A stretch of 64,000 bases of DNA from Siphonodentalium dalli (taxonomy: Eukaryota > Mollusca > Scaphopoda > Gadilida > Siphonodentaliidae). The translations under genes were made by a program, and so were the position numbers. How positions within the stretch are numbered: the first letter of the stretch is position 1; every line of letters begins with the position of its first letter. The notes beneath the pieces were generated by a model that worked only from the letters and a program-made list of their open reading frames with translations, was not told where the DNA came from and searched no databases. The stretch is from contig CP136062.1 in the NCBI GenBank assembly GCA_032622095.1, positions 56,525,849-56,589,848 of the forward strand, in the 5' to 3' direction. This document shows positions 1 to 46,500 of this stretch, piece after piece.

Positions 1-1324
1 GGAGAGTTCTAGAGACGTAATTTAATTCTGATACAGGATAATCGTCGGTATGGAGAGTTCTAGAGACGTAATTTAATTCTGATACAGGATAATCGTCGGT
101 ATGGAGAGTTCTAGAGACGTAATTTAATTCTGATACAGGATAATCGTCGGTATGGAGAGTTCTAGAGACGTAATTTAATTCTGATACAGGATAATCGTCG
201 GTATGGAGAGTTCTAGAGACGTAATTTAATTCTGATACAGGATAATCGTCGGTATGGAGAGTTCTAGAGATGTAATTTAATTCTGATATAGGATAATCGT
301 CGGTATGGAGAGTTCTAGAGATGTAATTTAATTCTGATATAGGATAATCGTCGGTATGGAGAGTTCTAGAGACGTAATTTAATTCTGATATACGATAATC
401 GTCGGTATGGAGAGTTCTAGAGATGTAATTTAATTCTGATACAGGATAATCGTCGGTATGGAGAGTTCTAGAGACGTAATTTAATTCTGATATAGGATAA
501 TCGTCGGTATGGAGAGTTCTAGAGATGTAATTTAATTCTGATACAGGATAATCGTCGGTATGGAGAGTTCTAGAGACGTAATTTAATTCTGATATAGGAT
601 AATCGTCGGTATGGAGAGTTCTAGAGATGTAATTTAATTCTGATACAGGATAATCGTCGGTATGGAGAGTTCTAGAGACGTAATTTAATTCTGATATAGG
701 ATAATCGTCGGTATGGAGAGTTCTAGAGACGTAATTTAATTCTGATACAGGATAATCGTCGGTATGGAGAGTTCTAGAGATGTAATTTAATTCTGATATA
801 GGATAATCGTCGGTATGGAGAGTTCTAGAGACGTAATTTAATTCTGATACAGGATAATCGTCGGTATGGAGAGTTCTAGAGATGTAATTTAATTCTGATA
901 TAGGATAATCGTCGGTATGGAGAGTTCTAGAGACGTAATTTAATTCTGATATAGGATAATCGTCGGTATGGAGAGTTCTAGAGATGTAATTTAATTCTGA
1001 TACAGGATAATCGTCGGTATGGAGAGTTCTAGAGACGTAATTTAATTCTGATATAGGATAATCGTCGGTATGGAGAGTTCTAGAGACGTAATTTAATTCT
1101 GATACAGGATAATCGTCGGTATGGAGAGTTCTAGAGATGTAATTTAATTCTGATACAGGATAATCGTCGGTATGGAGAGTTCTAGAGACGTAATTTAATT
1201 CTGATATAGGATAATCGTCGGTATGGAGAGTTCTAGAGATGTAATTTAATTCTGATACAGGATAATCGTCGGTATGGAGAGTTCTAGAGACGTAATTTAA
1301 TTCTGATATAGGATAATCGTCGGT
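1..1324. repeat. 51-bp minisatellite, about 26 copies, with alternating variants
   Basis: The unit begins 'ggagagttctagagacgtaa' and is 51 bp long. About 26 head-to-tail copies are almost identical. Two C/T sites vary within the unit. Copies 1-5 are C,C; after that the pattern is mostly C,T alternating with T,C, giving a 102-bp dimer. The array lies in the intron after exon L and ends about 75 bp from it. It continues off the left edge. Confidence 0.97.
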
Positions 1325-1398
1325 TTTTCAAAGAGACTGCAGTGTACATCGTTAAACCTGAATGGGTGAGTCCACAAAGTGTGAATGGGTATATTTAC

Positions 1399-1500
1399 CT
1401 CTATAGAACTGCTTCCAACCAGCATTTTCATCCAGCCAGGAATCTTAAAGTCGTCGTACTTCAGAAAGAGCACCCGCTTTCTGTTTTCACAATAAAATAA
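1399..1500 (-). CDS. TIR gene exon L (residues 518-551, TIR 2)
   Basis: The acceptor is 'attttctcttcacag' and the donor 'gtaaatatac'; 102 nt, phase 0 on both sides. It encodes LFYCENRKRVLFLKYDDFKI followed by PGWMKMLVGSSSIE, the equivalent of the 'KSILPI' strand. A second AG lies 22-23 bases into the exon, but using it breaks the frame. The next exon is off the left edge, beyond the minisatellite. Confidence 0.75.
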
Positions 1501-4500
1501 CTGTGAAGAGAAAATAAGATTATTGAAGACTATCTCTCTTATCATACAACATTTATAGTAATGCCCTAAATAATCGACTCCTTAACCACAGCAGAATTAT
1601 GGGTAATTTTTCAGGATTTAGTCGGAAATATGGCTTGTTGCCATTCATCGAAAAGCTATCACTGAGAGCTTTACTTATTACCAGTGGCCTACATGTGGTT
1701 TCATTTCATAATTAATTGTGCTTTTTAAATAAAAAGCATGTCGTATAATAAACCTGTTATCGCTGCAATTAATTGATCTGGGCTTCACATCACGTCTCGT
1801 TGAAGAGGTCACTGATCATGGATCAAACTCGAAGCCTATGGTGGCTTGTTTGATCCAGCGATCTGACCTATTCAACTCGACGTGACACTTTGCCCAGATC
1901 AGTTCACTGTGGCGATAACATGTAAATATCAATGCCAGCATATAAAATAATAGATATGAATTAGGGTGTCTCATAGATGAATAGAATTATGAATAGAAAG
2001 GGATATACCATGCAGTTCAGTGTGTAACGTACCTTTGAGGGGAATGTAGACAAACCAGGGGCCATAACTCAGGTGATCAAAATTGGACAAATCTGGTTTA
2101 AAAAAATGATCATGACATTGTTGTGAAAGATCCATATATGTATATCAAATATGAATGTAATCAGTTGACATTCAAGTTATCACGCTAACGGCCATTAAAT
2201 TGCTATAAATGGAATAAGGGTCATAACTCATGACAGGAGCTTCCAGAGATATTGCGAAAACCCTGTGCCAATGCATACTCTTATATATACGGAATACATT
2301 GACCTTGTAAGCCAGTGCATTCTCTTATATATGCGAGGATCCCTATGGGAAACCCGCATATATAAGAGACTGCACAGGATCTTTAATGCTGCACCAGCAC
2401 ATCTTCTGTCATGAACCTCATGGAAGGGTTAAAATGATATAGTACAAACCTGTTGTTTGCATGTTGTTGATTTTGAGAATGACGTAGAGATGACAGCTAA
2501 AATGACGCTTGCTTCATCAGCCTTCTCCTGGAACAATTGTTTCTCTTTGACATCTCGACTGTCATCGTCACCGTTCATTTCAAACTGACTAAACACTAAA
2601 ATAAAGAAATAGTTCACATAAGACCAAAGAAAACAATTTGGTTCGGGTTTCCTTACCGACCTAATATTAAACTTACCCTAAAGTTTTCATCATGATTTTC
2701 AAGATTTGTTTTATAAACAAGAGCATCGCTAGGGAATGGCAAAATAGGCCCTTGGTAATTTCAACAAAGGGTCATAACTCTTGTGACAATTGGCGTGCGG
2801 AACCCAAATTAAAACTTGACCTGTATTTTTGGCTAGTAAACTCACATGCCAAATTTCATTCCATTCAGTACAGACTTACTAAAGTTATCATCCGGAAACG
2901 AAAAAAGCAAACGACTAGACAAACGGATGGCTTGACAGACAAATAATATATAATATAATATGTCCCAAGGATCAGATTGAAGTTCCCCAGTTGAAGTTGG
3001 TGAAATTCACCCATTAGTCACCTCGATTATGCATTTTATATTCTGCAATTAGAGGATATGAAAACCGAACAGAAGTAACTAAAAACAATGTTATTTTGAT
3101 ACTTTACATACTTCCCAGAAGATGAGGCCTAATCAGAATGAGGTCACCAGAGGGTGAATTTGGCCATGCTAGCCTGCTGTGCAGGATAGCATCACTAAAT
3201 TCACCTTCCGGGAACCTCATTCTGCAAATGACAGACACGCTATTACTTGGCTTTCCAGATATTCAACTTTCTTAGGTCTAAAAAACACTGCATTACCCAC
3301 AAAGGTGGCAGGTCGCTGAGGTATCTTAATTCAATAGATGTCTTAGTCAGGCCTAAGGATACAGCGATTAGAAGTTAATATTTACATACACATAGAGGTG
3401 AATGCACTTAACATTCTATAATTAGTCGAAAGCTGTGTTCTATATTGTGCTAAATTTAGCAAACCACTATACTTGTATAATATCATGCTACATTTAGCAC
3501 ACTGCTATACCAAACTAGCATGTAAAAAGATATGAACAGAAGCAACAATCTCGAAAACATATATACATATATGTGTCCACCAATTTACTAAGGCATGTCC
3601 CAAATGAAATTAAAACATTACTGTGATCATATTTTTTCACAGGAACGACGTCAACTTGTGTCTGTCATTTGCAGAATGAGGTCCCCAGAGGGTGAATTTA
3701 GTGACGCTATACCGCATAGTGGGCTAGCATCACTAAATTCACCCTCTGGGGACCTCATTCTGCTTAGGCCTCATCTTCTGGGAAGTATCTATGGTATCAA
3801 ATTAACATTGTTTTTAGTTACGTTTTCCCTTCTGGAAAGTTTCTATATCCCCTAATTTGCAGAAGATAAAATCCGTAATCGAGGCGCCCAATGGGTGAAC
3901 ATCACCAACTTCAACTGGGGAACTTCAATCTGATCCTAGGTCTACCATAGCAGTTGAGGGCCTAAGCAGAATGAGGTCCCCAGAGGGTGAATTTAGTGAT
4001 GCTAGCCTGCTATGCGGGGAAGCGTCACTAAATTCACCCGCTGGGGACCTCATTCTGCAAATGACAGACACGCTATTTGCAGGCTTGCGTATATGTGTCC
4101 TCCAATTTACTAAGCCGTGTCCAAATGAAATTAAAACATTACTTTGAAAAAAAATTCATACGAACGACGTCAATCCGCTAAGTGGCAATATTTGGCTGAA
4201 TTCACATTGTAATACAGTTTCGGGTTTTCGTGCATTCAAAACAAAACCCAAATACTGCGCGTTTTGGTTTATTGAACTTGATTTCAACACATTTTTGTTA
4301 CGATTGTGTTTCTCTTAAACTGTTTATCGGTAAGTTGATAATCCTAGGGTGTATTTGTTCTCAGTAAAACAAGTTGCACATACTTTCTTTTAATGTCTTA
4401 TGAACTCAATTTGAACAGTCCAGCAATTGGGTCATGTTGATAGGATACGGTTATGTAGTATGCAAGCTACAAGTTTGAATTTTCGGTGAAATATAATAAA

Positions 4501-7500: not shown

Positions 7501-10500
7501 TATGGCTTGGAAGGGATGTTGGTTGATGGCAGGGTTGGGCCTGGGCCATATGGGAGGGGGTGGGTGGGGGAGGGTGGAATGTTTCCATAATTTCATTAAA
7601 GAGTAAAGTTTCATAACTCTGCAGATGTTATATATAATGGTGTCACTTTTTTTCAAATTTTAAAAAAAGTTTTAAAAAACATTGTCCCAGAAGATGAGGC
7701 ATAAGCAGAATAAGGTAATTGAGGTGTATTTGGTGATGCTAGCCTGTTGTATGGGTTAGCAACACTAAATTCACCATCTGGGGACTTCATTCTGCAAATG
7801 TCAGACACACTATGTCCAGGCTTGGAGAAATGAACAATGGACTATTCCTTGTAGACTCTGGTAGTTGTTTAGCTAATGTCATGTCTTGTAATGACAGATG
7901 ATAAACTGGTCTGAAGCAAGCAGTATTCAGCAAGAGGATCCGGTGACCACACTATGATAAATTGGCTTTTTCAATAATACAGGCTAGAGTGTCCTCTTAA
8001 AAATTAATAGTGCATAGCAAAGGGGTGTGAATTATAAAGGGCCATAACTCTGTTAAAATATATCGGATCAAACCCATATTTTAACTTGATCTGTATATAA
8101 GTGTCAAAAATTCATATACCAAATGTGGTGTTGATCAGATGAAAAATGTTTGAGTAATCCTGTCTTGGATGAATTCTATATCAATACAAGAGTGGAAGGG
8201 GTTAAATAAACAATACCAAAATCCATACAGATGAAGAACATGCTAAGAAAAATCTAGGTAAGAAATATGAGGCTGTGATGTGTCCTAAACAAAAATTAAA
8301 GGTCAAAATGCAAAAATTAAATTTTTTGTTTTTAAAGTTATGTCCCTGGCTCTGCCCCTATTTGACCCAGTGACCCCATTTGAACAAATCTGAACCCCAG
8401 TCACCCAAGGTATCTCTGTACCAAATATAAGCTAAATCGACCAAATATTTTTTTAGAAGAAGTCATTGTAAGAATCACTATGAGTTATGGCCCTGGTTTC
8501 TCAACTAATTGACCGGGTGACCTCATTTGAACAAATCTGAACACCAGTCACCCAAGGACTCTCCATACCAAATATTAGCTAAATTGGCCCAATGGTTATG
8601 GACAAGAAGTTGTTGTAAGAATTACTATGGAGGAATAGAGTTATGGCCCTTGTTTCGCAACTATTTGACCCAGTGACCTCATTTGAACAAATCTGAATGA
8701 GAGTCACCTAGGGAACATACACACCAAATATGAACCAATTCGGTATGATGGTTTAAGAGGAGAAGATGTTTTTAAAAAAGTTGACGGACGGACAGACGGA
8801 CAGACAGACGCACGGACGGACAGACGGACGGACGGACGACGGACGAGGAGTGATGACTATAGCTCCACCGGAGACTTTGTCTCAGGTGAGCTAAAAACTA
8901 CAGCCTCGGACAAAGTTACGGACAGATGGACGAGGGTCATTACTATAGTCCTTGACAGTATGTCTGGGACAATAATCAACTCACCACATTCCTGTGACAT
9001 GGGTGTGGTTAGCAAATCGTTATCCCACGTGCTCACCTCATTGGTCAGCCATACCTCATAGTCGTGTTTCTGTAACCATTGTCTCAAATTTCCACCCTAA
9101 AAATAATTCGGGTTACACTGTATTTGTAATATGACCTTGGTTTAACCCTTTCTATACTAAATGGATTCTCCCAGTCAGTTAACAAGACAGTCAATGACTG
9201 TGGAGATGATCACCAGACTGTAAAGACTGAGAAGACTAGGATTCCGAAAACCATAAGAGTTAGTACTTGTCAAAATCACTTAAAAACAAGTAGTCCTAAA
9301 GAGGGACGTAGCCTAGAGGATCTCCGTTAAGCAGTGGGGTGTCCACTTTGAAATTTTCAACTACATGGCCCTGATCCCCCACCCCACATAGTCCATAGTC
9401 TGCTCCCTTCCAAATGAAGCAAACACACTCCCAAGGAAGGATGGACGGATGGACGACGGACGAGGAGTGATGACTATAGCTCCACCAGAGAGTTCGTCTC
9501 AGGTGAGCTAAAAAGTGTACATCGGAATAGTCTATTATTGATTTGCAGGAATGCACAGGTAATATAATGAGATGACAGAAAATAAAAGTGCAGAATGAGT
9601 CATATTTATTGGAGGAAAATGTTCAGATAATAAGATAAAAAAAAAAACAACTTATGGTCGTTTGTTGAACTCATTATCTGAACATTTCCTATTAGACCGG
9701 CCCCCAGATGAGGGTAGTGTCACACGAAAGGGTAGAAATTTTGGCGCTATCTCCAATTATCCTTGACCCATGGGGGTTCCAAAACTGAGGTATCCAGGGC
9801 GGAGCAGGTGGAAAATATATTTTTTTGACCTTTTTAGTGTTTTTGACCTGCAAATTTCAGTATAATCAGGAAAACCAATAAAATAAGACAAATTTAGAAT
9901 AAAATATACCTGAATATCAGATATTTATTCTACCTGGGTTCCTTAACATTAATGATGTACAAAAAATGAAATTCTCCAACAATTTTGTGAAAAATTCACG
10001 AAAATGCCAAAAAAAATGAATAAATTCCAGTGCTTTTTCAAAAAAGTTTACCAGAAGATTTCCTATAAAATTTTCATTTTTTGGTATAAAGCTCTCATTG
10101 GTACATTAAAATTTTCAGCATTTTATACCTGATTTAATAATATCAACATCACAAGCAATAATATCCAACAAGCCAAGATATTTAAAAAAACTTAACCCAC
10201 CCCCCTAAAACTGATTTTCTATCTGAAAATACCTGTCAAGTCAGAATAGCCCGTTTTCGTTCCATTTTGTTAACAATTCAGAGTTTTATCATATATCATG
10301 GAAATAGCATGTATCTGAGGAGCTTTATGTTATGGTAGAGTCTATTTTGTTTAAAGTTTTGATTTTTATTGGGGTAAATTAGCTAAAATTCTAATTATTT
10401 TTAAGTGAAAATTTTTTGAAAAATTCCCATGACTGTCAGTTTTATGGATACAGCTGCACAACATGCACCACAATAAGCATAAATTCATCCCAAATATCAG

Positions 10501-13500
10501 CCATAAAATGCTATAATCATGTACCAGACCAGAATTAAGAAATAAAGTAAAACTTAACCCTACCCCAAGATAGTTTCTCAATGCTTTCAATTGTATGCTA
10601 TACTAAATTCGAAAGGTCGTTCATACTAGTTGATAGAATTCATATAATAAATTGCAATAGTTCTGCCCACAGATTATGCAATCTCATCTGCACTGTCACT
10701 GTCAATTTCATCAAATGTGATGGATCAGGCAGTAGAATTTCTGTGCAACATCTTACGGGAAGAATGGTTCAAACAACTCAGGCTGCCTATCGGCCGTCCA
10801 TCCATGAATTGCTACACCGGGAGTGGTTGATTTGGCAATGGTTGCAAGTCTCCACTGTTTTGCTATCATGTTTGCTCGTTTTGAGTGTAGAATTAAAGAT
10901 TTCTCTAATGGTGGAAGTGCAGAAAGATCAACTACCTTTTGCTGATTCTCGAACTTCTGCTGGAACATTACCCACCTAGTTTAATTCACTTTTCTCGAAT
11001 GTGGACCATACATGTATATGACACATGTTAACTTCTTGATTGTATTAAGCGTGTCACTGTTCAAAACCCAATTTGTTCCTAAATAAGCCATGACTTCAAT
11101 ATATCTTGATGGTCTTTCCAGCAACTTCCAGCAGGTGTTTTTTTCTTTTTCGAAACAACAATGAAAGGTAATTATTACCTGTGAACAGTGTGAAGGAATG
11201 GAACCCAACAAGTGCATTCTTCTGTAATATTTGGCTGCCAAAATGTGGAAATGGTAGATATTGACCCAGCGTGTCCCGCAATCGCTTACAAGTTTTGGTT
11301 GATGTAAATTGGCTATTCTGCCTTCTATACATTGAACAATAACATGTCTGATGCACCTTAGTTAATTTTTACTGTTTTCACCACTGACATTACCAGAAAT
11401 ATTAGATTTTTCTCTCACAAACTTGACATAAATAACGGCACAAAAATTTTCACGTAAAATGTAAATATGTTTGGTATGAAAGAAGTTTATTTTTGTTTTG
11501 ATCTACCTTAAATGTGTCACACTAAATGTGTTTATAAACCAAATTACTCAAAATGGCTTCCAAAATGGCAACCATTTTTTACATATATCCCAGACATTAT
11601 TCCCTGCGTTTCAGAAAATGTAGCAAATTGTGACTCACTTGGTTATTATACATGTTAGGTAATCAACTGACAACTAAATTTTCTATTGTGGTTATCCTAT
11701 TTCCTTATGGGGCATAACAAATTAATTTTAAAGTTGCCTTATTTGTTATTTGTTTTTTCCCCGAGAATCTCTTTTTGGATACTGGCTATATTTTTTTAAT
11801 AAATGGGCAGAACTTTGAAATGGAACTGAAATAAATCATAATCTGTGGCTATTCTGGTCTATTTAATAGGATAAAAAAAAATGGTCAAAATGATTCATGG
11901 TGGAGGTCAAGATGGCAACCAGGGAGTTACTGTGTGGTCATAGGTGAGGTGAATATGTATCAAGGGAGTTATTGTATGATCATGAATGATGTGAATAGGT
12001 GTACATGATTAGCTATCTGGTCATGAATGGGGTGGCCATGGTGAGATGTATAGGTATGCAATGAGTGAGTGTATGGCCAATTGGCCATGTGTGAGGTTAA
12101 TATGTATACAGGGAGTGACTGTATGGTTGTATGGTTATGACTACCCAGTACAGGTGTACACAATGTGACTCAATGGGCATTTCTGTGGTTTATGTAAATA
12201 ACGAGAGTACCTACATGGTCATATGTGTGTGTATGTACATATGGAGTGACTGTATGGTCATTGTTGGTATATAGATGTGTACCTTGTGTGGCTGTATTGT
12301 CATAGGTAGGTGTATATGTATATATGTGTTGTCTGTATGATCATGGGTGGGGTGAATGGATAAATAGATGTGCAGCTATGTGTATAGGTGTACATGGAAT
12401 GGCAGTAGTTATAATGTGTATATGTACCTGATGTATGCTGAATGGTCATTGATGAGCATGTGGATGGTCATGTGTGGATGCATATGTATATATCGAGTGG
12501 CTATATGACTATTGACATGGCAAATATGTATACAGTGAATGAAACTATGGCCAATAGTGAGGTGAATATGTTTTCAGGGAGTGACTGTATGGCCAATGGT
12601 GAGGTGAACAGGTATACAAGGAGTGACTGTATGGTCATGAATGTGGTGAATAGGGATACAGGGAGTGACTATATGGTCATGGGTCAGGTGTAGAAGTATA
12701 CATGGTGTGGCTGCATGGCTGTATGGTCATGTGTAGGGTGTACGGGTATACACAAGTGTGGCTGTATGGCTATGGAGAATTATGTGTACAAAGTGAGTGG
12801 CTATATCGCCATTAGTGAGGTGCATATGTTTACCTGGAGTGATTCTATGGTCATGGTTGGGGGTATATGTATATCTTGCTGTGGCTATTTTGCCATGGGT
12901 TTGGTGAACATGTATACAACGAGTGACGTATGACCAATGGTGAGGTGGATAGGTATACAATGATTGACTGGATAATCATGAATGTGTTGAATAGGTACAC
13001 AGGGGGTGACTTTACGGTCATAGTGTGCCTGCATGGTGACTCATGGTTGTATGGACATGTGTGGGGTGTACATGTATACACGAGTGTGGATATATATGGT
13101 CATGGGTGAGGGGTACGTATATAAAGCGAGTGGCTATATGGCCAAAGGTGAGATGCATATGTATACATGGAGTGACTCTATGGTCATGGATGGGGTGTAT
13201 ATGTATATCTTGAATGGCTATTTTGGCCATGGCAAATAGGCATACAGGGAGTGACCGTATGGCCAATGGAGAGATGAATAGGTATACAAGGATTGACTTA
13301 TGATCATGAAAGTGGTGAATAGGTATACAGGGAGTGAATATATGGTCATGGGTCAGGTGTATGTGTATATAGTGAGTGACTATCTTGTCATTTGTGTGGT
13401 GTTTATGCGTATCTATATGGAGTGACTGTATGTTACTGGGTTGGTTGTACATGTGTACCTTGGGTTGCTATTGCTTTCCACAATAACTCAATGATATAGT

Positions 13501-19500: not shown

Positions 19501-22500
19501 TAAATTGTTAAAGAATGTAAGAAAAATTGTTAGGCCTATGATCGACTCGCATATATAAGAGAATACATTGGCACAGTGTCAATAATGTTGCGCCAGCACA
19601 GCTCCCATCATGAAAGGGTTAAGAAATTAATGTAGTCTGAGCAGGTCATTAGGCACATTGTGCTAAATGTGCTCCAACGACCACAGCGACGTAATCCTCA
19701 ATTAAACATACTCAAACTACATTCAATTCTTATATTTATATAGCTTTTCCATTATTAATTTCTACAAACTTATCTGAATTTTTTCTGCAGTTGGGTATTA
19801 TAGCATGCAGATGTGTAAGTTAGCCTAATATTCTACCTGTAAATTATCAATTTATTGGTAAAATTACCAATTTATTGAAATGCATGACTCAATTGGTAGT
19901 TGACCAATAACCGAGCAGGATTTACATTTACATAGGTTACATCAATATCAACAAATTCACCCTCTGGGAACCTCATTCTGCAGAGGCCTCAACTGCTATA
20001 GGAGACCTAGGGTCAGATTGAAGTTTCCCAGTTGAAGGTGATGTTTACCAGTTTGTCACATTTATTTTGCATTTTCTCTTCTGCAAACTAAGGGATAGAG
20101 AAACTGAACGGAAGGGAAAAAGTAACTAAAAACAATGTTAATTTGAGACTATAGATACTTCTCAGAAGAAGAGGCCTAAGCAGAATGAGTTCCCCAGAGG
20201 GTTAGTTTTGTGATGCTAGCCTGCTGTGCGGGGTAGCGTCACTAAATTCACCCTCTGGGATCCTCATTCTGCAAATGACAGACACACTATTTCAAGGCTT
20301 GTTCTCTTTGATTGGGGATGCAGACTCTCGTTGATCGGGATGCAGACTTACCAATTCTCGTTGATCGGGATGGAGACACACCAGTATCAGTGGTTTCCCC
20401 TCTCTGTCCTCGGGAACGGCACAGCTCTGCTCCAGGATGTCCTCGTCTATTTTTAAAGCGTAACTTCTTACAACAGTTTTCTATGCAAAGAAAATAAAAA
20501 TATGTTCTAAATAATCAAAATGTAACAGATATGAGAATATCTAAAAAAAAATTCTGGTATATATTGGATTTGGCTAATTTTTTGCTGTTGTAACTTGGAG
20601 TTGTTGGGTTTGGAATCCCGAAAATATCTTTAAAGGCATCCAAGACAATAGCAGTGGGTAAATGTGTAAAAAATATAAAAGTCTGTAAAAACATCTCCAC
20701 TAAGAAGAACATGGAGAAATAAATAAGCTTTGTTCTTATGTTCATTACTGATAGTTCTCCAATAATTAGACAAACATTGCTAATCTTGTAGTAAGTTAAC
20801 AAAATTTAATCTGAATATGATTTTTCAAGTTTACCATAAAGTTTTGATTAAACTTTGGTCCAAAATTTAATTTTTCATTCAGTTTAGACTTACTGAAGTT
20901 ATCTTCTGGAAACGAAAAAAGCAAACAGACGTACCAACAAATGGGTAGATATATGGCTAATAAGTTATGTGGCTAAAATAATTATGTGTCTAAAAATTTA
21001 TGTGGCTATCAAGTAGTTGATGAAATTTTATGTGGCTATCTACTAGCTGATAGGAATAAAATTTCAGATTATGGAATCAGAACATGAAGGAATTATAGCA
21101 GAAGTAGCTGATTGAAACTCAAAAGGTTGCATACAGCAACTAGGACAGTGGGATAGGAGAAACTGACCATCCGTGATTGGGTGACTAGCCACATAACTGT
21201 CCAAACACCTCCTATTGACAGATCATGGATATCCAAATCTATGGAGTTTTTGTTTTTAACTTTTGAGTGACTTTAAATTTAAATAGGCTGATAAGGCCAA
21301 ATAGCTAATTTTTGAGGGTTCATCTGAATTATGTTACGTGGCTAGCCATGCAACCAAAATTAGACACATAAATATACATTTTTCTTATAGATAGCCACTA
21401 GGCCTGCAACGATACACTTTGTCACGATATGATATGAATCACAATACACGATCAACGATATGATACATATCACGATACACTAAATTAGTTTTCCAAATGA
21501 ATACCGCCTGAATTATCAGAAACAACAAGTTTATAACTGGAGGTAGAATTCATTTTAAACTAAAAAGGAGTTTAATTGTTGGCTAGATGAGTCAAATATA
21601 CATAGTATACATGTAAACTTGAGAGATAATTGCAGGTTTTGATTTGTTGCACTATCGCATCTTCAGACATTACTTGATTTCCTGTATCGCGATATACATT
21701 AAACGATACGATACATGTATCGTTTGAAAGTGTATCGCGATACATTGATTTAAAGATGAATCGTTGCAGCCTTAATAGCCACATAAGTATCCAAATGTAA
21801 GATTGGACAGACGACTTGACAGTACGACAGACGGACTAATAACATAACATGTCCCATTTTTTTCAAAAAGCGTATAATAAGATAAACACCCTTTTATTGA
21901 GAGTCGGGACTTTTAGCAGTGATAAGTTTGATTCATTAGGTTCATCACGTCTCCTCAAGAGAGCTTTCATACGTTCGTCGATAGCATTGGCAACATAATT
22001 AATGTATTTTTCATCCCAAATAGATATGTCCTTTGATGAAGCACCACAACCTTCTGCTGCTTCTGAAAAATAGTAAAGAACATATATGTGTGATTTTATC
22101 CTGCATGACATATGTACTGCCTGAAAATATTATGCCGGATATTTGCAGAATGAGGTTCCCAGTGGGTGCATTTAGTGACGCAAGCATGCACCGTGGGCTA
22201 TCATCACCAAATTCATCCTCTGGGGACCTCAGTCTGCATGGCCTCATCTGCTATGGGAGATCAAAACTCAGATTTAAGTTCCCAGATCAGGAAATGGTGA
22301 TGTGCACCCATTGGGACCTCAATTATGTTTTGTGTTCTCTGCGAATTTAGGGATATAGAGAAATTTTATTTCATAATAAAGATACTTTCCAGAGAAGATG
22401 AGGCCCAAACAGAATTCACCCCTCTGGGGACCTCATTCTGCAAATGTCCGGCACCATATTTTCAAGCCTGATAATGTATACAATTAGTATTCATTCCCAA

Positions 22501-25500
22501 TTCTCTTATAATAAAAACACACTCGTTGCAAATGAGCCATGCCGAGTAACCCGACTGGCATTTATTGAAAATATGAAAAAAGGCAAGTGGGCACATGCAA
22601 TGATTACACATAATACAATTCTATAATCTATCTGGTTTGCGACGGCAGTCAGGTAAAAAAAAAACATTTAAAGGAGGAAACCTGCTTTCCGAAACACAGA
22701 CAAGCCGCAGATCAAATATTTGGAAATTCAGCACATTTATTATCATGTGCTACATGTGTATAAATACACAAGCATTAATCATATTTCATAAAATTACTTC
22801 ACATACAAAATCCATAGCTGTGTAACTTTCGTTAATTCATGATATATGAAATATACACTGAAAATGTTATGTAGTTACCAACTGTATAATTATATCACAC
22901 ACTGTGAAACATACGTGTTATTAAACCTTTCAGTGCCAAGTCCGATTTTTGTATCAACCCATATTTCCTTGATCATTTTTCAAATTTATTGATTATAATA
23001 ATGTGATACATTGATGGAAAGAGCTCTTAGAGCTCTTTCCATCAATGTATCACATTATTATCTATATCTATATTTGCGAATGTCTATCTGTCTTTCTGTC
23101 TGTCTGTCTTCTATAGATATTCACAGGGGACCACCTAGATGGCACAAAAAGGGTCTAATAGGGGTAACTTTTTACGAGAAAGATAATGGCGAGGGTTAGA
23201 ATTTTCTAAAGTGACGCCGTTGTTGTCAGGGGCAGAAAAAAAATTGTCGCCGATTGCCACCAAACTTATATATAATCATCCCCATAATATGAGGAATCTA
23301 ATGGTGTGGTTTAAATATGTCAAAAGTCGCGCCGTTTGCGTCAGGGATGCCCGGAAGGGGAGAGGGGCACCAAAATTGATCAAAATAATTTTAGCGCCGA
23401 ATTCCACCAGATTGATGCACATTCTTCTGAGATCTTCTCCATGATACAAGGAATCTTATTGTGTGATTTAAAGACACCAAATTGGTGTCGTTGGGATGAG
23501 AGATTTGAGGGGCGAAGGGCGGCTTCTAAATCTGATAAGAATTGGTTTAGTCGCCGATTGCCACGAAACTTATACAAATTCATCCCCATGGTATGAGGTG
23601 TCTAATTGCGTGGCTTAAAGCTGTCAAAAGTGGCATCATTCGAGTCAGGGGTGCACTGAAAGGGAGGGGGCACCAAAATTGATACACAATATTTTTAGCG
23701 CCAATTTTCACCAAATTGATACACATTCTTATCCATGATATGAGGAATCTAATCGTGTGATTTTAAAGAAGTCATATTGGTGCTGCTTTTGTGAGAGATG
23801 GGGGTGGGGTGGGCACTAAATTTGATAAAAAATTGTTTAGTTGCGGATTAGCACCAAACTTACAAATAATAATCTCCATGATATCAGGAGTCTAATTATG
23901 TGGCTTAAAGATGTCAAAAGTGGGGCCATTCGAGTCAGTGGTGCCTAGAGTGTGAGAGGGACACAAACAATATGTTTAGCGCCGATTTCCACCTGAGTGA
24001 TACATATTCTTCTCCGTGATACGAATAATCTAATTGTGTGGTTTAAATGCGCCATATTGGTGCCTTTTGTATGAGAGATATGCAATGGTGGTCCTAAATT
24101 TGATACGAATTTGTATACTCGCCAATTTTTATAAATTGTATATATATTCATCTCTATAATGAGTCTAAGTGTGTGGTTTAATGATGTCAAGAGTCCGAAA
24201 TATGGAAGGGAGGGTCACCAAAAACTTATAAAAATATGTTTAGTGCCAATTATCATCAAACTCATACACGTTCTTCTCAACTGATACAATGAATCGAATA
24301 TTTGCGAATACATGTATCTGTCTATGTTCTATATATAGCTTTAAGGGTACAATCGAGATGGCACCAAGGCGGTCTAACAGGGGTAACTTTTTACGAGTAA
24401 GATAATGGTGCGGGTTAAAATGTTCTAAAGTGACGTTGTTGATGTCAGGGGAAGGGCTATTTTTATCACAGATTTCGACCAAATTGATATATTATTCTTC
24501 TCCGTGATACGAGGAATATAAACGTGTGATTTAAAGACGCAAAATTTGTGCCGTTTGGGTGAGAGATGGGGGGGGGGGGTAATAACTATGATAAGAATTT
24601 GTTTAGTTGCCGATTACCACCAAATTTATATATAATCATCTCCATTATATAATGCAGGCATGAGTCTAATAGACGTGGTTTAAATATGACAAAAGTGGCG
24701 CGGTTCAAGTCATGCATGAGGGGAGTTGCACCAAGTTGATACAAATATATTTATCACTGATTCTACCAAATTTATGCATGTTTTTCTGTAATGATATGAT
24801 GAATTAAATCACATTTGGGGTTGTTTGGGTCATGGATGGCGAGGGGAGATTCACTAGCATTTATAAGATTGTTCAATTCGCCAATATCCAACAAAGTTAT
24901 ACATAGTCATCTACCAGGCCATCTCCATGTCGTACTAAGGAGTTTTTGGCATTCCAATTTCACAATCTCGACAAATGGTGACGAATTAAGTCACTTGAAC
25001 AGTTATATCTTCTCAACTGTCATAGTTAATTGGGGATGGAAATCAGTGCATTCCTATAATGATCTAGCAACACAGATACATAGAAGAAAGCATTAAAAGT
25101 ATATTTATATCAATCTATTTAAGATATACATATATATATTCATTCAAACTGAGGGACCTTGAATCGTCAGAGGATTGCATATTATAATGGCTCATGTATA
25201 TATTATAATCACGATTGAGTCTGTCCCATTCAATATAGTTTCCACAAAAAAGTTACAATTGCCAAGAGATATGGAAATGTAGATTGACGATGACCAAGAT
25301 ATGGAGCTTCAAAGTTGTTACTGACAGACTCATGGACAGACAGAGCCCATTTATATATCCCCCACCAAGTTTTGTTTGCGGGGGATAATAATAAACATTT
25401 CCAATATAGACTTAAATAACTGGGAAGGAGGATCCATTTAGTAAAGAAAGGGTTAGACTGGTTACCTGTAGCAATTTGTGCCTTGGTTTTCCAGCAGATA

Positions 25501-28500
25501 TACTGTGTTGTAGCAAACTGAATCGCTAGACACTTTGGCGGCCATTCATCGAGGAATGAAATCGGAAGGATGGACTTCCCCAGAACATCAGCTAACTTTA
25601 CCTGCAGACATATTATAAAAAGAGCATCGCTAGGGTGAGGCAAAATAGGACCATGGTAATTCCTACAAAGGGCTATAAGTCTAGTGAACAAGCCTTGAAA
25701 TAGTGTGTCTGTCATTTTCAGAATGAGGTCCCCAGAGGGTGAATTTAGTGGCGCTACCCCGCACAGTGGGCTAGCATCACTAAATTCACCCTCTGGGGAC
25801 CTCATTATGCTTAGGCCTCAGCAGAATGAGGTTCCCAGAGGGTGAATTTAGTGATGCTAGCCCGCTAAGTGGGGTAGCGTCACTAAATTCACCCTCTGGG
25901 GACCTCATTCTGAAAATGACAGACACACTATTTCAAGGCTTGCCAGTGAAAATTGGCGAGCAGAAACCAAATTTGAACTTGACCTGTATTTTGGGCTAAT
26001 AAACCACTAATTCATTATACCATATTTCATTCCATTCAGTTCAGACTTACAAAAGTAATCATCCGGAAATGAAAAAAAGTGACAAGACAGACGGATGGAT
26101 AAGTAACATAATATGTCCAGTTGTTTTAAAAAGGGCGTATAAAAATGATGACCTGGCACGAGGTGGACATTGTGTATGTTCTCCCAGAGGAACACATTGT
26201 GACAATGGTTCCCAGGGACAATATACAGTTGTTGCCAACTGTTGAGGGAGAAGTGAGGTTTGTCACCCGCTCGAGAATGGAATGTCTCCCGAGGAGTGCA
26301 GGTCAGAGGATGACATTCCATTTTCGAGCGGGTGACAAATCTCAATGTCTGCCGACAGGAACAACTGTTTTGTTATCCGATTACTAAACTAAAGACAAAT
26401 TCCTTGTCATTCATATGCACAACATTGCACTGAGTCATTGCATCTCGTGAGAGCTTTTCTCAAGATTATAGTTTCACTAATTTTGTATCGTCATATATGA
26501 TGTCTATTAATATAAGTTAGACAAGACGTTAGTATTTTGATTATTGCCATTTATTTGCCATCATTTTGGTGATTATATCATCAAAATTGGTCCATGCAAT
26601 GTAAACCAATAAGCCATAGAAGTATGTTCTTCTACAATTTGGCATATTCATTGATGGTATGTTGTCTTGTACACAAAAGCTATTAAGCAGTTGTCAATTT
26701 CATAATGTGCATACATACAGTAATGCTCTAAGTAATCGACTTCTTTACCACAGCAGAATTATGGGTAACTTTTCAGGATTCGGTCGGAAATATGGTTTGT
26801 TGCCATTCATCGGAAAGCTCTCCTCGAGAGCTTTCCGATGAATGGCAACAAGACATATTTCCGACTAAATCCTGAAAAGTTACTCATAATTCTGCTGTGG
26901 TTAAGAAGTCGATTACTTAGAGCATTAATGTATGTATCAAAACTCGCAAGAACATCCCGCACGAAATACATCTATGTTGCAATAATAACAATGCAAACAA
27001 GCTGAAGAAATATGATATAAGGGATAAGTGTACAGTTGAATTCATGCATGATAACCATATCTATTATGTTGTACACCAGTAAGAATATACACAATGTATA
27101 TCAAACCTGCCTCAAGTCATAGCCAATATGGCATCATAATTTCGACAAGAATATATTTAATTACCTATTTCGATGGAAATAGGATAGAATAACACTTTCC
27201 CGATAAAAGTATCAACTTATATTAAAAGTTAAAATATTAGTGTTAATTAGCCAACACCACAACTTATGCTTTTTGTGAACATGTTGGGGTATATAAGATT
27301 AATGATACTGGCGCTGTGTGATCAGGAACATCTCATCGAGTCAGCAGCACTATCAGGAAAATCTTATAAATATTGCTAACTTCACAAGTAACCTGATTAC
27401 TTTAAAGAGTAAACTTTATAAATTGCCAAACTATGGAACAACTTACCAAAAATGCTTTGTCAGAGTCGCAGTGCCCTTCTCAGGGCGCCGGCTTTGACGT
27501 GGTAGCCTTCCTAAAATCAGAGAACGCAGACCTGAAAAAGCGGATCGACAACTTGAATGGAGAAATTGTAGAAAATCGTCACACGATCAACAACCTATCT
27601 GAAAACATCAGAAACCTTAACATAACGATGACGAACAAAAAAGAAAAGAAAAAAGACACAACTCCAAAACCATCGACGACCGAAAAGCCAAAGACGAACG
27701 ACAAGCCAAAAACCTCCGACAAGCCAAAGACATCCGACAAGCAAAAGCCATCTGACAAACCAAAGACAACAGACAAGCACACGACCTCTGATAAACAAAA
27801 GACAACTGAAAAAGCCACGACCTCCGATATGCCACAGACGCCGAAACATGCCGAAACACCCAAGACAACAAAAAATCCCACGACCGGCGAATCAACCTCC
27901 ACTTCATCTCAGAATACCACTACTGCTACCACTAAACCGGCCGAAATTAAAGACATACACATGACTAACGAAACTGACATTCAAACCTCAACCGACCAAG
28001 ACATTTCTGACTCTGACTTCGCCATGTTCTACACCAGAAATAAGAAACGCCAACGACAAGCACACGACATGCCTGAAATGATCAGCCCACTAAATACACC
28101 ACATAAAAAACGAAAAGAAGATGCAGCAGAGATCGACAACCTGCCCTCCAAGCAACCGAACAATCCAGCCAGTCACAACAGTCATCATACCACCCAAACG
28201 ACCAAGCCAGCCAACCACAACAACCAGAAAAGACGAGACACCCTCATAGCTGAAAACATGACGGAAGAAATGAAGCAAAGCCCGTATTTCCTCCAAGGCG
28301 CCATCACAACGAAATACCCAATAAGAATATCAACAACCAAAGCCGGAACCATCCTGATATACCCACAAAACGAAGAAACTAAACACTACCTCCTAACCAA
28401 AGCCAAAGAATTACCGATCTTCAAACAGACCAACACAACATTCCGGCTCACTCACGGGAGCAACCGATCGCACCAAGTAACTCACCGGGCTGTTATCAGT

Positions 28501-31500: not shown

Positions 31501-34500
31501 CAACCAAGCGATCCTACTAGGAATAACACTAGACCAGCAAATGACCTTCATCCCTCACATCAACAAGATAGCCGATAAAGCTCGAAAAAGAACAAATCTA
31601 CTACGATGCCTCCTGGGAACAGACTGGGGAACCAACAGCCAAACCCTCATCAACCTCTACCAAATCTACGTCCGACCAGTCATGGAGTACGGTGCTGCCG
31701 TCCTCACAGCAGCCCCAAAGACATACATTGAAAAACTACAGAAAGTCCAAAACCTAGCCCTCCGCATCGCGCTCCGCCAACCGCTAGAGAACGGAATGTC
31801 TCCCTCGGAGCTTCGCTCCTCGGGAGACATTCCGTTCTCGAGCGGGTGACAAATCTCAATGTCTCCCTCGACAATGGGCGACAACTGTATAATGTCAGCC
31901 GCACGACAAAACATAGATTGGAATTAATAGAAACCTTGGAACAATCGGTCTATTACATTCTTAAATGGATGTCAATATGTGCGACCAGTTATCTGCGACA
32001 CTGCCGGCAGAATTCCTCGAAATTTCCTTCTTTCTGTTTCCCGGGAAATCGAGCGCATTGCACCAAGTTTCGATACGTTGAATCATTTTGATAACATTTA
32101 ACACTTGTAATTTATGTCTGTTTTCTGGGACTCCCTCCGTCAAGACAACTACTGTGAATATGTGATGTAGTTGTTAGATCTATTGTGGGGTGAACAGTTT
32201 AACAGCTAACTACCATTGGTATCGGACTGCAACAATTATATAGCTGAATGCTGTACCCATGTCCAAGTGTGTCAAATCTTAATTAAATAATGTAGACAAC
32301 TGACTTCCATTTCATTGGGTTTGTTTGTGATACATTGATTGAACTGTCTTTTAAGTGGCTTACTCAGCTATTTTATTTGACAGAATTTTATGAAACTTAG
32401 TATGTGGACTTCATATGAGAAAGTCCCAATCAAGTTCAAATTTTGTGTCACCTCTTGTGTCATGTTTGCCATGATGCAGCTAGATAGAAATTCCATGCAA
32501 CATATCCCAAACCCTACATGAGACTGAGAGTGACTTGCCTATTTCATGATTTCCCTAAAAAAAAACACAAGTTCCAACGGATGTTTAAGAAGATTAACAT
32601 TGTTAGGCCAAAAAAAAAAGAGTTTTGGTTTTCGGGCAATTTTTTTCTTCAAATCAATGAGGGAGGGAGGGTTTTTTTTTATTTTTTATTTTTTTCTGCG
32701 CATAGTAAGCATGGACAAATATACCTTCGTCTGTCTAGTAATAACCAGAAATGTAGAGGGAACTGTTATGCATATAAACTCATTTAATCTTTTATAAAAA
32801 TGACATTGTACTACCAGTGTATGACTGGGATTACCTAACATTATATAATGCCCCTGACATTAACTACTGTTATTGTTGTCTAAAAACTGATACCTCCCCA
32901 TTCTAATATGTGATCCTGAATTTAGTTCTGTGCCTTTCAATTGTATAAAGTTACAATTAGTGTAATGACTAATTGTAAGAAGATCATGAGGGTCAGCTTA
33001 TCATTTTTGTCCCCCGACGTTTCCGTCGGAGGACTATAGAAATGACCCTCGTCCGTCCGTGCGTCCGTGCGTCCGTGTGTCCGTGCGTCCGAGATTGGGT
33101 ACCTTCATGGTGTAATCAACTCCTCCTACAGTTTTAAACGTAGAGATTTGAAACTCTGGGATATTGTTCCTAACATGTTGGTGATTTGCAACATCTATAT
33201 AGCTAATCAAAAATATAAATTTTTCCATATTTTTGGGGGGGTTTTCGACTTAGAAAATTTGGAACATTTTTGCCTTTTGGATGAGATTGGGTACCTTCAT
33301 GGTGTAATCAACTCCTCCTACAGTTTTAAATGTAGAGATTTGAAACTCTGGGATATTGTTCCTAACATGTTGGTGATTTGCAACATCTATATAGCTAATC
33401 AAAAATATCATTTTTTCCATATTTTTGGGGGGGGTTTTCGACTTAGAAAATTTGGAAATTTTTTGCCTTTTGGATGAGATTGGGTACCTTCATGGTGTAA
33501 TCAACTCCTCCTACAGTTTTAAATGTAGAGATTTGAAACTCTGGGATATTGTTCCTAACATGTTGGTGATTTGCAACATCTATATAGCTAATCAAAAATA
33601 TCATTTTTTCCATATTTTTGGGGGGTTTTCGACTTAGAAAATTTGGAACATTTTTGCCTTTTGGATGAGATTGGGTACCTTCATGGTGTAATCAACTCCA
33701 CCTACAGTTTTAAATGTAGAGATTTGAAACTTTGGGATATTGTTCCTAACATGTTGGTGATATGCAACATCTATATAGCTAATACAAAAATATCATTTTT
33801 TCGCGTTTGCATGCGTTTGTTCATCGGGTTGTTTTGTCCAAGAAATTTTGCGGTGGTTTGCAACATCTATATACTGTATAACATTGTTGCAAATAGTATC
33901 CTTCTAACAATTCCAATCATGAAGTTTACCACTCGAGTCGGGGGACATGTGGTCTGCGACCTTTTATCTTAATTGTAGTCATCTACTTCATGTTGTAAAC
34001 CTGCAAGTCACTTTTAACACATTACATGTTAGAGCTCAATGCACACTATTATTCAACACATATCTGCTACGGACATGTTTTTAAAATAATAAAAAAATAA
34101 AATAAATTTAAATATATTTTTTGTAAGTTTTTTTGTTTGTCATAACATCAGGCATTGCAATAAAAAGGCCTAATGCGGCCCTTTTTATTCAATGCGATGC
34201 GGCAGGGCCTGAGAACCAAAACTTTTTTTTTTGGCCTTATATAGTATCTAGTGAATTTTGCAGTTTTTTTGTCATGAGACACCGAAATGAACACTGGTAA
34301 ACAATTTCAATCAATAGCTGATTCGATTCGAGATTTGATTCGATGTCGATATTCGATTCGATGCAAAATCCCCGATTCGCAGATCCCTACCCTGGTCAGC
34401 AGGCAGCAGTGATTTTTGCCAGCCTAAACTTTCTTATAAAAGTCCCATACTAAATGATATGGAAAAGAAATTAATAAATCATGATATCTACTGCATTTTT

Positions 34501-40500: not shown

Positions 40501-43500
40501 GTGATGACATACCCCATGGTGGCAAATTGATAAAGTATAGGTGAGATATCTGCTTGGACGGGAAAATAACCCTCCAACAATTTCACATAAGCAAAGGTAA
40601 CTCTGTAGAATGGAAAACATGAACAAAACAATTGAACACTCAATTGATTGCCTTCATAATAGTGAACATTAACATAAACAAAGATAAATAACACCGGAAT
40701 GGAAAATATAAACCAAGCAATTGATTGCCATGATTGTAATGATCATCCGTACCAAATATAATTGATATCCGTCAACTGGTGGTGGAGATATGGACAAAAG
40801 AACAACACTTCCTTATCTACAAAGATGATTAACTGTAGAATGGAAAATTCGTACAAAAAAAAATGGACAATGGCCTCATAGTAGTGAACATCCATACCAA
40901 ATTTCATTAAGATTCGTCACCGGTGGTGGAGATATCTGAAGGACAGAAAAACCACATTTTCAGATAAACAAAGATGAATAACTCTAGAATGGAAAATCCG
41001 GAAAAAACGATTGAACAATCCGTTGAATGCCCTCATAGTAGTGAAAATCCATACCATATTTAATTGATATTCGTCAACTGGTGGTGGAGATATCTGGTTG
41101 GACAGACAAAAAGAAAAACATTTCCAGATAAACAAAGATCAAAAACTCCAAATCGGAAAATCCGGAAAAAAACGGTTGAACACTCTGTTGAATGCCCTCA
41201 TAGTAGTGAAAATCCATACCAAATTTCATTCAGATCAGACAAGTGGTTTTTGAGATATCTGCCCGGACGGATGGACGTATGAGGTCAATCCAGTATTCCC
41301 CCATTCTCTTCGAGAGTGGGGGTATAACAAATGATAGGTTGTTTGTTGAACTTATTATCTAACCATTTCCCTCAATAAATAGGGCTCTTTCTGCCGTCTA
41401 CTTTTATAACCTGAACATCCTTCCAAATCAACATTAGACCATTCCGATGTACACTTGTCATGTGACTGAGAGAATCAATTTACAGTAATGCCCTAAATAA
41501 TCGACACCTTAACCACATCAGAATTATGGATAACTTTTCCGGATTTAGTCGGAAATATGGTTTGTTGCCATTCATCAGAAAGCTCTCACTGAGAGCTTTC
41601 TGATGAATGGCAACAAGCCATATTTCCGACTAAATTATGAAAAGTTACCCATAATTCTGCTGTGGTTAAGGAGTCGATCATTTAGGGCATTACTGCAGTT
41701 TAGAAAAGGTTGAAATACATTTTATCTGACACCAATAAATAACACTCCTTCTGCATCATCTGTCATCAGCTTATTTTTCCTGAAAACCCCTTTAAACAAA
41801 CAAAAGACCATTTAATAATTCCAGTATTTACTTTTATATCTGAGTGGGAGAATCCATTCAGTAAAAGAATGGTTAATGATGGAACCTACCTCTCGATTGG
41901 TCCACTGAGTCTCCCCGTATCTCGGAGTAACCAATGGAATGAACACTTCACAGTTGCTCACGGCATAGTTTAGCGAATCCTGCCAATCAAACCCAGATTT
42001 TATCTCATGAACATCCTGAAAATGTGAATGTAAAATATTAAAATTGTTATTGTACATAACATCTTTAAAGGGGTACTGACACTAAATCCGACCAGTTATG
42101 GGACCATCTCCTTTTATACTCAACAAATTATATGCAACAAATGAATGAATTTGAGCCATGTGCACTCATGTGCTCTATGAACAATGCAAACAACATGGTA
42201 ATTATAATGAATATGAATTTATGACTCCAGCTGGTTATGTTAAAATTGTGAGACACGTCTGAAACTTTAAGCTACACTAATGCCCTAAATAATCGACTCC
42301 TTAATCACATCAGAATTATGGGTAACTTTTCAGGATTTAATCGGAAATATGGCTTGTTGCCATTCATCGGAAAGCTCTCAGTAAGAGCTTTCCGATGAAT
42401 GGCAACAAGCCATATTTCCGACTAAATCCTGAAAAGTTAACCATAATTCTGCGGTGGTTAAGGAGTCGATTATTTAGGGCATTACTGTATGTTCACCATG
42501 CACCACTGAGCATTATAAGTTCAGGATACTTTGCCACCCGACTACTACTTAGTAATGGTTGCTAAGCAGCTACCCAGAATTGAAAGGAAAAATCTCTGAA
42601 ATTTGCAACATTTTGTATCCTTTTATCATGTAATCAAATGTCACAGAGGAACAGGAGTTTAATTGTGACGTCATGGGTGAAGACACGTCCCCACCTGCTC
42701 CTGTACAGGACCTTTACCAGTAGCCCCCACACGCTTGGCCTGCAAATGGTATATTTTGCCCATCTGTCTCCTTCTGATTTGCTTTCCTTTTCAAATTCAC
42801 TCCCTGTAGCCTATTCGTCCCAGTTGCAATCCTTGCCATCATCCAATAATAATTGCAATGTTTGATCAACAGACAGTTTGTTTTGGCTCATCATGTACAT
42901 GCCTGTATACAGGTTGACAATAACATGAATCTAAAGCACCGCCTTCTGTTGTTGTAATCAACTTGGCAGATGATACATTAATTAAAGGTACTCAATCCAA
43001 TCAGACAGTCCCTATATCATCAAGTTACAACAACAACATTTCTTCAAAATTCGCTTTAATTATCAGAATCGATTAATTACAACAAAATAATTCTTCTAAC
43101 CACTGTCAACTATGGTATAACATTTCCACAAAGCGTGTTATTTATCAACATGTTGTTCAACGAATAATGGCCAAATTGTCACTTGAGTATCACAAAATTT
43201 GGCCGTATTACCACTTGATTTTAGAGTTATCCATCTTCATCCGCGATTTTGTCTGACAGGCCACAAATAAGTACATATCTCGAGAAATTTCAAAAATCGA
43301 TATCTGGTCACTCTGAGCTTTGATGGGTGAGATCCTCGACTCGATTCAAATATTTTTTTACCTCCGAAGCCAAAGAAATCGTAATTTGGGAGCCTTAATT
43401 AGAGTCCTTAAATGACGATAGAACGAGATTACGTTATGGGCAAAAAATCGGCCTGTCGAATATATATACAATAACTTTCTGGCCGAAAACCGGCCAGCCA

Positions 43501-46500
43501 AGTTCAAAGGATCTAATCCTTGGTTATCCTGCCACATACTTTAGTCCCAGACCAAGTGGACGGAAGTTATCTTATTGCGTATAACCAGTTGATATTAAAT
43601 GTCTATACTGATAATACTATAATTTTTGTAGATAATCTCCCACCCTGATCATTTTCTCCCAAATATTTTTACCTTAAAATGTAGTGGCAAGTTACTCTTA
43701 TTTTATCATTCAATATGACTATGTGAATCAGAAAAACTATCAATGGTGACAATGAAGCATGTTTTTCTGAGGCAAATGCAATAAATTACAGTTTGGAAAA
43801 TTCTTTTTGAAAAAAAAACATAGTTTATCTACCCCATCCCCAGAGCGTAGCGGTCATACATTTATGCGTACGGCCGAATAATATGGGCACAATTTACATA
43901 TGCTGTGAAGCATTATCCGAGCTGCAAAGCAGTAAGTGGGGGAGAACACAAGAGTGGGAGAGAACACAAGAGGAGGGGGTTCGGGGGCCTGCCCTGAGGA
44001 AATCTTTTAATATTGCATTCAAAATGACACGTTTTACTTGGTTTCCTGATATATATACATGCATATAGAAGTGGTTACAAAAATGGAAATAAGTAATATT
44101 TACTGTAATAATGAGTTAGATCAACTAAATCCTGACATCGGTGGTATTTCTAGTAGATTATATACATGAGTGAGTGACAATCACATAATTACATTCGCCG
44201 ATGCAGCCATGTCACTGCAGGAAGTTGGTGAGGGGAGTGTGGTGAGGGGAGTGTGGAGTGCTAGCTGGTTGAACAAAATTCTATAGCCTATACCTGATTG
44301 ACTGAATTTGGCACATGATAGTAACATGCCTACGGTTGGCAATACATGTATCGTAACAACTAAATTTACCAAAATCCATACGTCAATACCACGTACACAT
44401 TTGGCCCATGCACTTTCCTGGCAGTGCTTAGCCATGGAGTATAACTTAGGAATAGGCCCATACAGCCCTATATAATATGGAAAGGAGTTTGTGTTATGAC
44501 TGAAAGGGCCATTGGTCGTGATGTTTATATATAACGCCAGATCTATACCACGCACATGCCTACAGGAACATGATGCAACTTATCATAACAACGTGTACTG
44601 ATAAAACATTATGATCAATTAGTTGTTCCAATACTCATAATAAGTTAATTGGGCATACTGATGGGAATGACAGGATTATTAACATTGGTCCTGTTAGAAG
44701 TATATTATTCACCTTTGCCAGCAAAATATTGGTACGGCCAAAACCGTCCAGCCGTACCCAGAATTACGCCCTTGCCCATCCCCCCAATGCATGCCGCCTT
44801 TTCTAAAAGGGGAAGTTATGACCACAATGTGCCTCGACATTTTTGAGAATTTGGAACATGAATGATAAAAAATATCATGCAGATTAATATATTTCCATAT
44901 TTTTTACGAGAATTCCCAAGTCATAAATACCTAAACTCTGCCTACTTGAAATAGTGCGAATTCTTTTGCAGCGATCTATGGAGTACATATGGAGGGCTCA
45001 CTGTTTGCATGTGTTTAATTTAATGAAAAAAACATACCAGATATACACTGTATCCCAATTTGGAGAGAGCTCCCGTTAAGTTGAGGGCGTGCTGGGCCGA
45101 CTCCGCCCTGCAGTAACTGACTAAGATCTGTTTGGACATTTGAAAGTATGATGACTCATTCAGATGACAGTCATCGGGTAGACCATGTGAGAATGACGAG
45201 TCATCTCGTGTCAGGGAAGGTAACTCTTCCAACCTGTAAGACAAAAATAAACCAGGTGTGAAAGATGAATTAAAAAAATAACAATTTATCAGTTTTAAAA
45301 ACGTTAGTGTAATAACTTAAATGAATATCAACCAAGCCTGAGTTTAGTGTGCCTGTCATTTACAGAATGAGGTCCCCAGAGGGTGAATTTATTGATACTA
45401 TTCCGCATAGCGGGCTAGCATCACCAAATTCACCGTCTGGGGATCCAATTTTGCTTAGGCCTCATCTTCTGGGAAGTATCTATAGTCTTAAATTAACAAT
45501 GTTTTTTTAATTACTTTTTCCCTTCTGGGAAGTTTCTATATCCCCTAATTTGCAGAAGATAAATTTCATAATTGAGGTTACTAATGGGTGAACATCACCA
45601 ACTTCAACTGGGGGACTTCAATCTGATCCTAGGTCTCCCATAGCAGTTGAGGCCTAAGCAGAATGAGGTCCCCAGAGGGTGAATTTGGTGATGCTAGCCC
45701 ACTGTGGGATAGCATCACTAAATTCACCCTCTGGGGACCTCATTCCGCAAATGTCAGACACACTAAACTCAGGCTTAATATCCACAGACTCCATTACTAT
45801 TTGTGTCTGTCATTTGCAGAATGAGGTCCCCAAAGGGTGAATTTAGTGATGCTACCCCGCATAGCGGGCTAGCATCACCAAATTCACCCTCTGGGGACCT
45901 CATTCTGCTTACACCTCAGCAGAATGAGGTCCCCAGAGGGTGAATTTGGTGATGCTAGCCCGCTATGCGGGGTAGCATCACTAAATTCACCCTCTGGGGA
46001 CCTCATTCTGCAAATGACAGACACGCTATTTCAAGGCTTGATCCCAACTCTTGCTTTTTTTCTTCTAAATCCTGTTTTGCTGAGCATTGGGACATAGATA
46101 ACGATTTGCAACATCACTGATCCATTTATATAGGATACGTTCTCTATGTCCTCAGATACTTTTCAATCCGAAATGAATAAAAGGACTAGATGTACCAGTC
46201 TATCAGTTGGCACATTTATATGTGTTTTAATATTTACTGTATTCAGCCGGAAATCACATATCCTCGGACGTGGGCTTCTAAAATGTCGTACATGTCATTT
46301 TGGCACAGAACTTATTATTGCATTTTCAGATTACATAAACTTGTACATCAGATAACTTGTCAATATTTCAAGTACAAATGCTATTTTTCAGGGAAATTCG
46401 TGGTCTAAAATGCTGTATCTGAGTTTCCCGCCATTTCTGAAAATGTTCCTATTAGGATAATTTTAATTGGCTTGTTTTGAAGAGGATTGGCCATAGGACG

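Follow-up and report, generated by a model that had tools for sequence, protein, structure and literature searches.

A predicted gene of the mollusc Siphonodentalium dalli joining a catalytic-type TIR, a degenerate TIR and a SLOG domain

TIR, DrHyd and SLOG domains belong to one nucleotide-handling clade, the active members of which cut N-glycosidic bonds, the inactive ones acting as sensors of nucleotides (PMC9503650). In the bacterial Thoeris system, formed by the TIR protein ThsB and the SIR2-SLOG protein ThsA, the TIR makes gcADPR, which is read by the SLOG; gcADPR is also a minor product of SARM1 TIRs, and activates the SLOG-bearing ThsA (PMC11025887). Two TIRs in series, which the original prediction for the present locus had held to be unusual in animals, are no novelty, being already known in invertebrates and in Dictyostelium: they are found in mollusc Tolls (PMC4929906), in "twin-TIR" TLRs and in family 6 of the cytosolic ecTIR-DC proteins (PMC6836662), and, as a diverged tandem, in Dictyostelium TirE (PMC13142454).

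Here we describe the reconstruction of a gene lying partly within a window of 64,000 nucleotides, the whole stretch of DNA analysed (C2:56525849-56589848), in a genome which was searched in full (2.2 Gb, 9 contigs). Minus-strand exons were assembled by hand, on the basis of splice sites, phase and frame; coordinates given without a contig name are those of the window. The eight minus-strand exons originally proposed, E to L, from 45233 to 1399, are present, with GT-AG borders and matching phases. The product, however, does not end at 551 residues, as had been claimed: the left edge of the window cuts the gene, and exons M to R continue it. These were found by scoring all AG..GT exons in 40 kb of the left flank, irrespective of domain content, which resulted in a compact series of good exons, with six in-phase ones, M to R, located 16-25 kb left of the window. 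As rebuilt, the gene consists of 17 exons (C, X, D, E-L and M-R) and codes for 824 residues followed by a terminal stop; the frame is continuous, all borders are GT-AG and all phases fit. The product features, in this order, an N-terminal domain, TIR1, TIR2 and SLOG, and would be read from a single transcript.

In whole-genome searches every exon had two hits, one at this locus and one in an inverted copy at C2:56045645-56106917. The two copies belong to blocks of at least 120 kb which are nearly identical and inverted with respect to each other (C2:55999775-56120870 vs C2:56486448-56618748), about 0.4 Mb apart, and in which many intron insertions differ; the arrangement can reflect a recent duplication in inverted orientation, or else a second haplotype left unmerged in the assembly. 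Over 2,475 coding bases the copies differ at 12 positions, 11 of them synonymous and one a Glu-to-Asp change, with neither stops nor frameshifts. Under a null in which 75% of changes are nonsynonymous, the probability of observing one or none is 1.9e-6; the other two frames would score 1 and 0 synonymous changes, against 11 in the modelled frame. Divergence of the coding bases is about 5 times lower than that of the surrounding introns and gene span (Fisher p = 6.6e-13). Exons X, G, I, K, L, M, P and R carry the differences, and the test therefore reaches the N-terminal domain, TIR1, TIR2 and SLOG, being strongest for TIR2. With 11 synonymous changes and a single conservative one, the frames are coding and under purifying selection, in the N-terminal, TIR2 and SLOG exons alike. 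Membership of a large family was considered and rejected, since genome queries with TIR2, SLOG and the N-terminal domain retrieved nothing besides the gene itself and the inverted copy.

The likely first coding exon is C (54533..54723, residues 1-64), the best upstream exon (splice scores 4.2/5.7), which is identical in the second copy and otherwise unique in the genome. Its first codon, at 54723, is the Met taken as the modelled start, and it opens the N-terminal domain; the 5' end of the gene model is a prediction. Exon X (52523..52615, residues 64-95, ending in ..VITANDEIFILRQFG) fits the phases of both C and D and differs from the second copy by one synonymous change. Splicing exon C straight to D, which the phase permits, was rejected, as exon X (..NDEIFILRQF, with its synonymous change) would be skipped. 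Exon D (47505..47669, residues 95-150) encodes an acidic low-complexity linker and is phase-matched to X and E, having a weak acceptor (1.3) and a donor of 5.7. In this model 150 residues precede the codons of exon E itself, and the 199-residue N-terminus proposed earlier was not reproduced. Searches of Pfam, NCBIfam and PDB agree with the earlier statement that the N-terminal part matches no family; its hydrophobic pattern gives the impression of a ubiquitin-like (beta-grasp) fold. Several tandem repeat arrays, at 52632-53197, 59141-61753, 33046-33969 and 12304-13467, give rise on either strand to long open frames that are spurious.

TIR1 begins in exon E (45038..45233, residues 150-215, splice scores 6.0/3.9), which encodes a linker and the region from strand A to strand B. 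It continues through exon F (41890..42015), from the BB loop to W253xxxE257, and exon G (25466..25601, residues 258-303), with strands D-E, and is completed by exon H (21890..22062, residues 303-360), carrying the last helix and a linker. Exons E-G match Pfam TIR_2 with an E-value of 2.7e-15. Exon F aligns with the SARM1 TIR, the residues W253-T-N-R-E257 falling on W-V-H-K-E of SARM1, which includes the catalytic glutamate. A conserved glutamate alone is no proof of activity. Best PDB matches of TIR1 are SARM1 and bacterial TIRs, and no TLR TIR was found in this search at E<1. With PADLOC the top match is ThsB (3.8e-13), further TIR models matching as well, while the closest matches in the prokaryote, phage and plasmid collections searched are ordinary single TIRs. 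The intron separating exons F and G (41890-25601) contains two long open frames on the plus strand, of 581 and 941 residues (27406-31846), which resemble ORF1 and ORF2 of non-LTR retrotransposons.

The nearest paralogues of TIR1 are short TIR proteins encoded on contig C3, L021, L023 and L025 at 85.7-85.9 Mb and L001 at 222.99 Mb, with CaaX-like tails (..CSVL, ..CVIL, ..CDIL, ..CVLL) that would point to lipid anchoring. In the C3:85923031 region, a further locus (L016) combines a Death-domain-like open frame with an adjacent TIR exon ending in NCNRE before the intron described below, and is possibly a gene of the ecTIR-DC family 6 type. Elsewhere in the genome, Toll-like open frames were seen that contain LRRs and TIRs.

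TIR2 is encoded by exon I (20352..20480, residues 361-403, splice scores 4.1/5.1), with a linker and strand A, exon J (9037..9096, residues 404-423), with helix A and strand B and within the TIR_2 match, exon K (2450..2584), from the BB region to Q468, exon L (1399..1500, residues 469-502, splice scores 4.5/4.5), with strands D-E, and exon M (C2:56509729-56509613), which gives the last helix. Exon I differs from the second copy by three synonymous changes and the E-to-D one, exon L by two synonymous changes. TIR2 matches TIR_2 at 9e-6; taken alone it scores 26.6 bits, slightly below the 28-bit cut-off. It has no WxxxE: T-C-K-Q-Q468 is found instead, with Q468 at the position of the catalytic Glu. 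The ungapped 32-residue stretches on which the resemblance of the two TIRs had been based, KQILVSYCRAESAQHALNLTGALSKLGYSVYL and KPLILVCLHPDQRELGGNLRQWLQKHDYEVWL, do exist, but are identical at merely 8 of 32 positions, and BLASTP of TIR1 against TIR2 detected no similarity. The identity of TIR2 is established by its own profile match and by the position of an intron: exon K ends at a phase-0 intron immediately after Q468, exactly as a phase-0 intron follows E257 in TIR1. The same intron is found in other TIR genes of the genome, after NCNRE. Sharing it supports the view that TIR1 and TIR2 derive from a common ancestor, probably through internal duplication. The profile matches, together with W253xxxE257 in one domain and Q468 in the other, bear out the proposal of two TIR copies, one catalytic-type and one degenerate.

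Whether both TIRs share one chain is decided by the join between exons H and I, the weakest of the gene model. The exon H donor, AGG/gtgttt, scores just -0.3, the lowest of all; exon H can alternatively be read on to a stop codon shortly downstream, and one AATAAA/ATTAAA lies about 290 bases beyond this stop. With the in-frame stop near 21863 as its end, exon H might accordingly close a TIR1 gene, and a gene for TIR2 and SLOG would then start at exon I or at an unseen exon. We consider this improbable: exon I is preceded by an AG, the TAG of which is an in-frame stop, so that exon I needs an upstream exon; the H and I phases match (0/0); and the exon organisation of TIR1 and TIR2 is parallel, with the intron after E257 and Q468, as internal duplication predicts. 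TIR1 and TIR2 are thus very probably parts of one predicted gene.

Downstream of exon L the gene leaves the window through an intron of 17.5 kb, of which positions 1..1398 are the start. A long minus-strand open frame at 2-1327, made of tandem TDDYPISELNYVSRTLH-like repeats, lies in this intron. The length of the intron, and an internal Met within exon M, would suit a TIR1-TIR2 gene ending near exon L and a separate SLOG gene downstream. This division appears very unlikely, since exon M completes TIR2 with its last helix and fits L as well as N in phase, and the same intron is just about 7 kb long in the second copy, other introns of the gene reaching 16 kb.

Exons N-R, to the left of the window, encode the SLOG domain and the tail (residues 542-824). 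They are N (C2:56509192-56509101), O (C2:56508608-56508449), P (C2:56507414-56507270), Q (C2:56506597-56506476) and R (C2:56501595-56501263), the last of which carries the stop. The domain matches Pfam LDcluster4 (SLOG cluster 4) in two stretches, with 31.3 bits against a gathering threshold of 26.3 and an E-value of 1.8e-7, improved from 5.5e-6 by inclusion of the last exon; NCBIfam TIGR00725 matches at 5e-6, under its own cut-off. Most of the LDcluster4 score is contributed by the first half, ..VYVCGG..LVTGGSHGVEEMVSSAF. When searched alone against Pfam the second half has no match; by eye, FGRTLFCGGSTKERDLIVSEAFDCCIIIDG..STAEQ resembles the usual second half of SLOGs. Also by eye, the PGGxGTxxE motif of LOG-type phosphoribohydrolases is replaced by GDSCSLSTAEQ, and this loss of the catalytic motif makes a sensor likelier than an enzyme. 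A PDB search with SLOG did not match ThsA, and the two SLOGs may differ in kind. Bacterial contamination or a recent transfer of SLOG was rejected, since the domain is part of a gene of 17 exons and searches of prokaryote genomes, plasmids and phages found no close relative. An exon-by-exon search of the genome with LDcluster4 found nothing, because the domain is split across introns.

The above features may be accommodated in a single gene for a cytosolic multidomain protein, with an NAD-processing TIR1, a regulatory TIR2 and a nucleotide-binding SLOG following the N-terminal domain, a reading to which we give not quite an even chance. TIR1 would turn NAD into ADP-ribose or cyclic ADP-ribose; TIR2, having lost the catalytic residue, would be a structural or regulatory partner within the TIR assembly; the C-terminal SLOG would bind an NAD- or ADP-ribose-type nucleotide and gate or read TIR1 in cis. 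Control could run in two directions, SLOG either reading the TIR1 product or gating TIR1 upon another NAD derivative. Models for such control are the ARM domain, which gates SARM1, and ThsA, which reads ThsB, but here it would act in cis. The "enzyme/regulator pair" suggested at first is thereby recast as a signal-generating TIR, a pseudo-TIR and a putative nucleotide sensor, SLOG being located outside the window. In its more specific form, the protein would be a single-chain, Thoeris-like animal device, TIR1 producing an ADP-ribose-type signal from NAD+, TIR2 tuning the assembly and SLOG sensing the signal or another NAD derivative; this is possible rather than probable.

A non-enzymatic adaptor, in which both TIRs serve as assembly platforms for Toll-like signalling and SLOG is structural or a relic, is likewise possible rather than probable. 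Cytosolic animal proteins with multiple TIRs are usually held to be adaptors (ecTIR-DC, PMC6321704, PMC6836662), and both the glutamate lost from TIR2 and GDSCSLSTAEQ in place of PGGxGTxxE would suit this role. On the other side, TIR1 retains WxxxE and is less close to TLR TIRs than to SARM1, ThsB and bacterial TIRs, and the differences between copies in the SLOG exons are synonymous only.

The predicted multidomain protein differs from each of the known systems nearest to it. It resembles Thoeris in that the TIR possibly makes an ADP-ribose signal which SLOG possibly reads, and in having a ThsB-like TIR, as by the best PADLOC match. Thoeris consists, however, of two bacterial genes, while here one animal chain includes an additional degenerate TIR and a cluster 4 SLOG; moreover, ThsA joins SLOG to SIR2 or another effector, whereas a Pfam scan of the 824 residues found only TIR_2 and LDcluster4 above cut-off, and neither SIR2 nor TM nor any further effector domain. 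With SARM1 it would share a cytosolic location in an animal, a TIR with WxxxE and, in the same chain, a candidate nucleotide-sensing domain; unlike SARM1 (ARM repeats, tandem SAM, TIR), it has no SAM or ARM match in Pfam, features two TIRs, and its candidate sensor is a C-terminal SLOG. Family 6 of ecTIR-DC (ARM-Death-TIR-TIR, in invertebrates), as defined in PMC6836662, is also cytosolic with two TIRs, but the present gene lacks Death and ARM matches in Pfam and has a SLOG. Twin-TIR mollusc Tolls (PMC4929906) have tandem TIRs as well, along with an LRR ectodomain; here no LRR match was found in Pfam, and TIR1 is SARM1/ThsB-like rather than TLR-like. MHR1/2 of TRPM channels, an LSDAT-type SLOG, is likewise an animal SLOG and occurs in a protein related to ADP-ribose (PMC13143021), but belongs to another SLOG family, and Pfam found no channel domain here.

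A TIR and a SLOG in one animal chain were not found in the literature searched, from which Gerdol 2017 (on ecTIR-DC) and Burroughs 2015 (on SLOG) were absent. The fusion is surprising because, in bacterial Thoeris, the TIR makes an ADP-ribose signal and the SLOG reads it: by analogy, one chain may hold the logic of signal-maker and signal-sensor which in bacteria is divided between two separate anti-virus proteins. SLOGs read such signals in bacteria, and a native animal combination of a catalytic-type TIR and a SLOG would be a direct, expressible test case for the readers of TIR-made nucleotides in animals. With this gene, the tandem-TIR architectures of invertebrates extend beyond Tolls and Death-domain adaptors; if it does encode a single-chain, Thoeris-like device, NAD signalling in the innate immunity of an animal would be self-gated.
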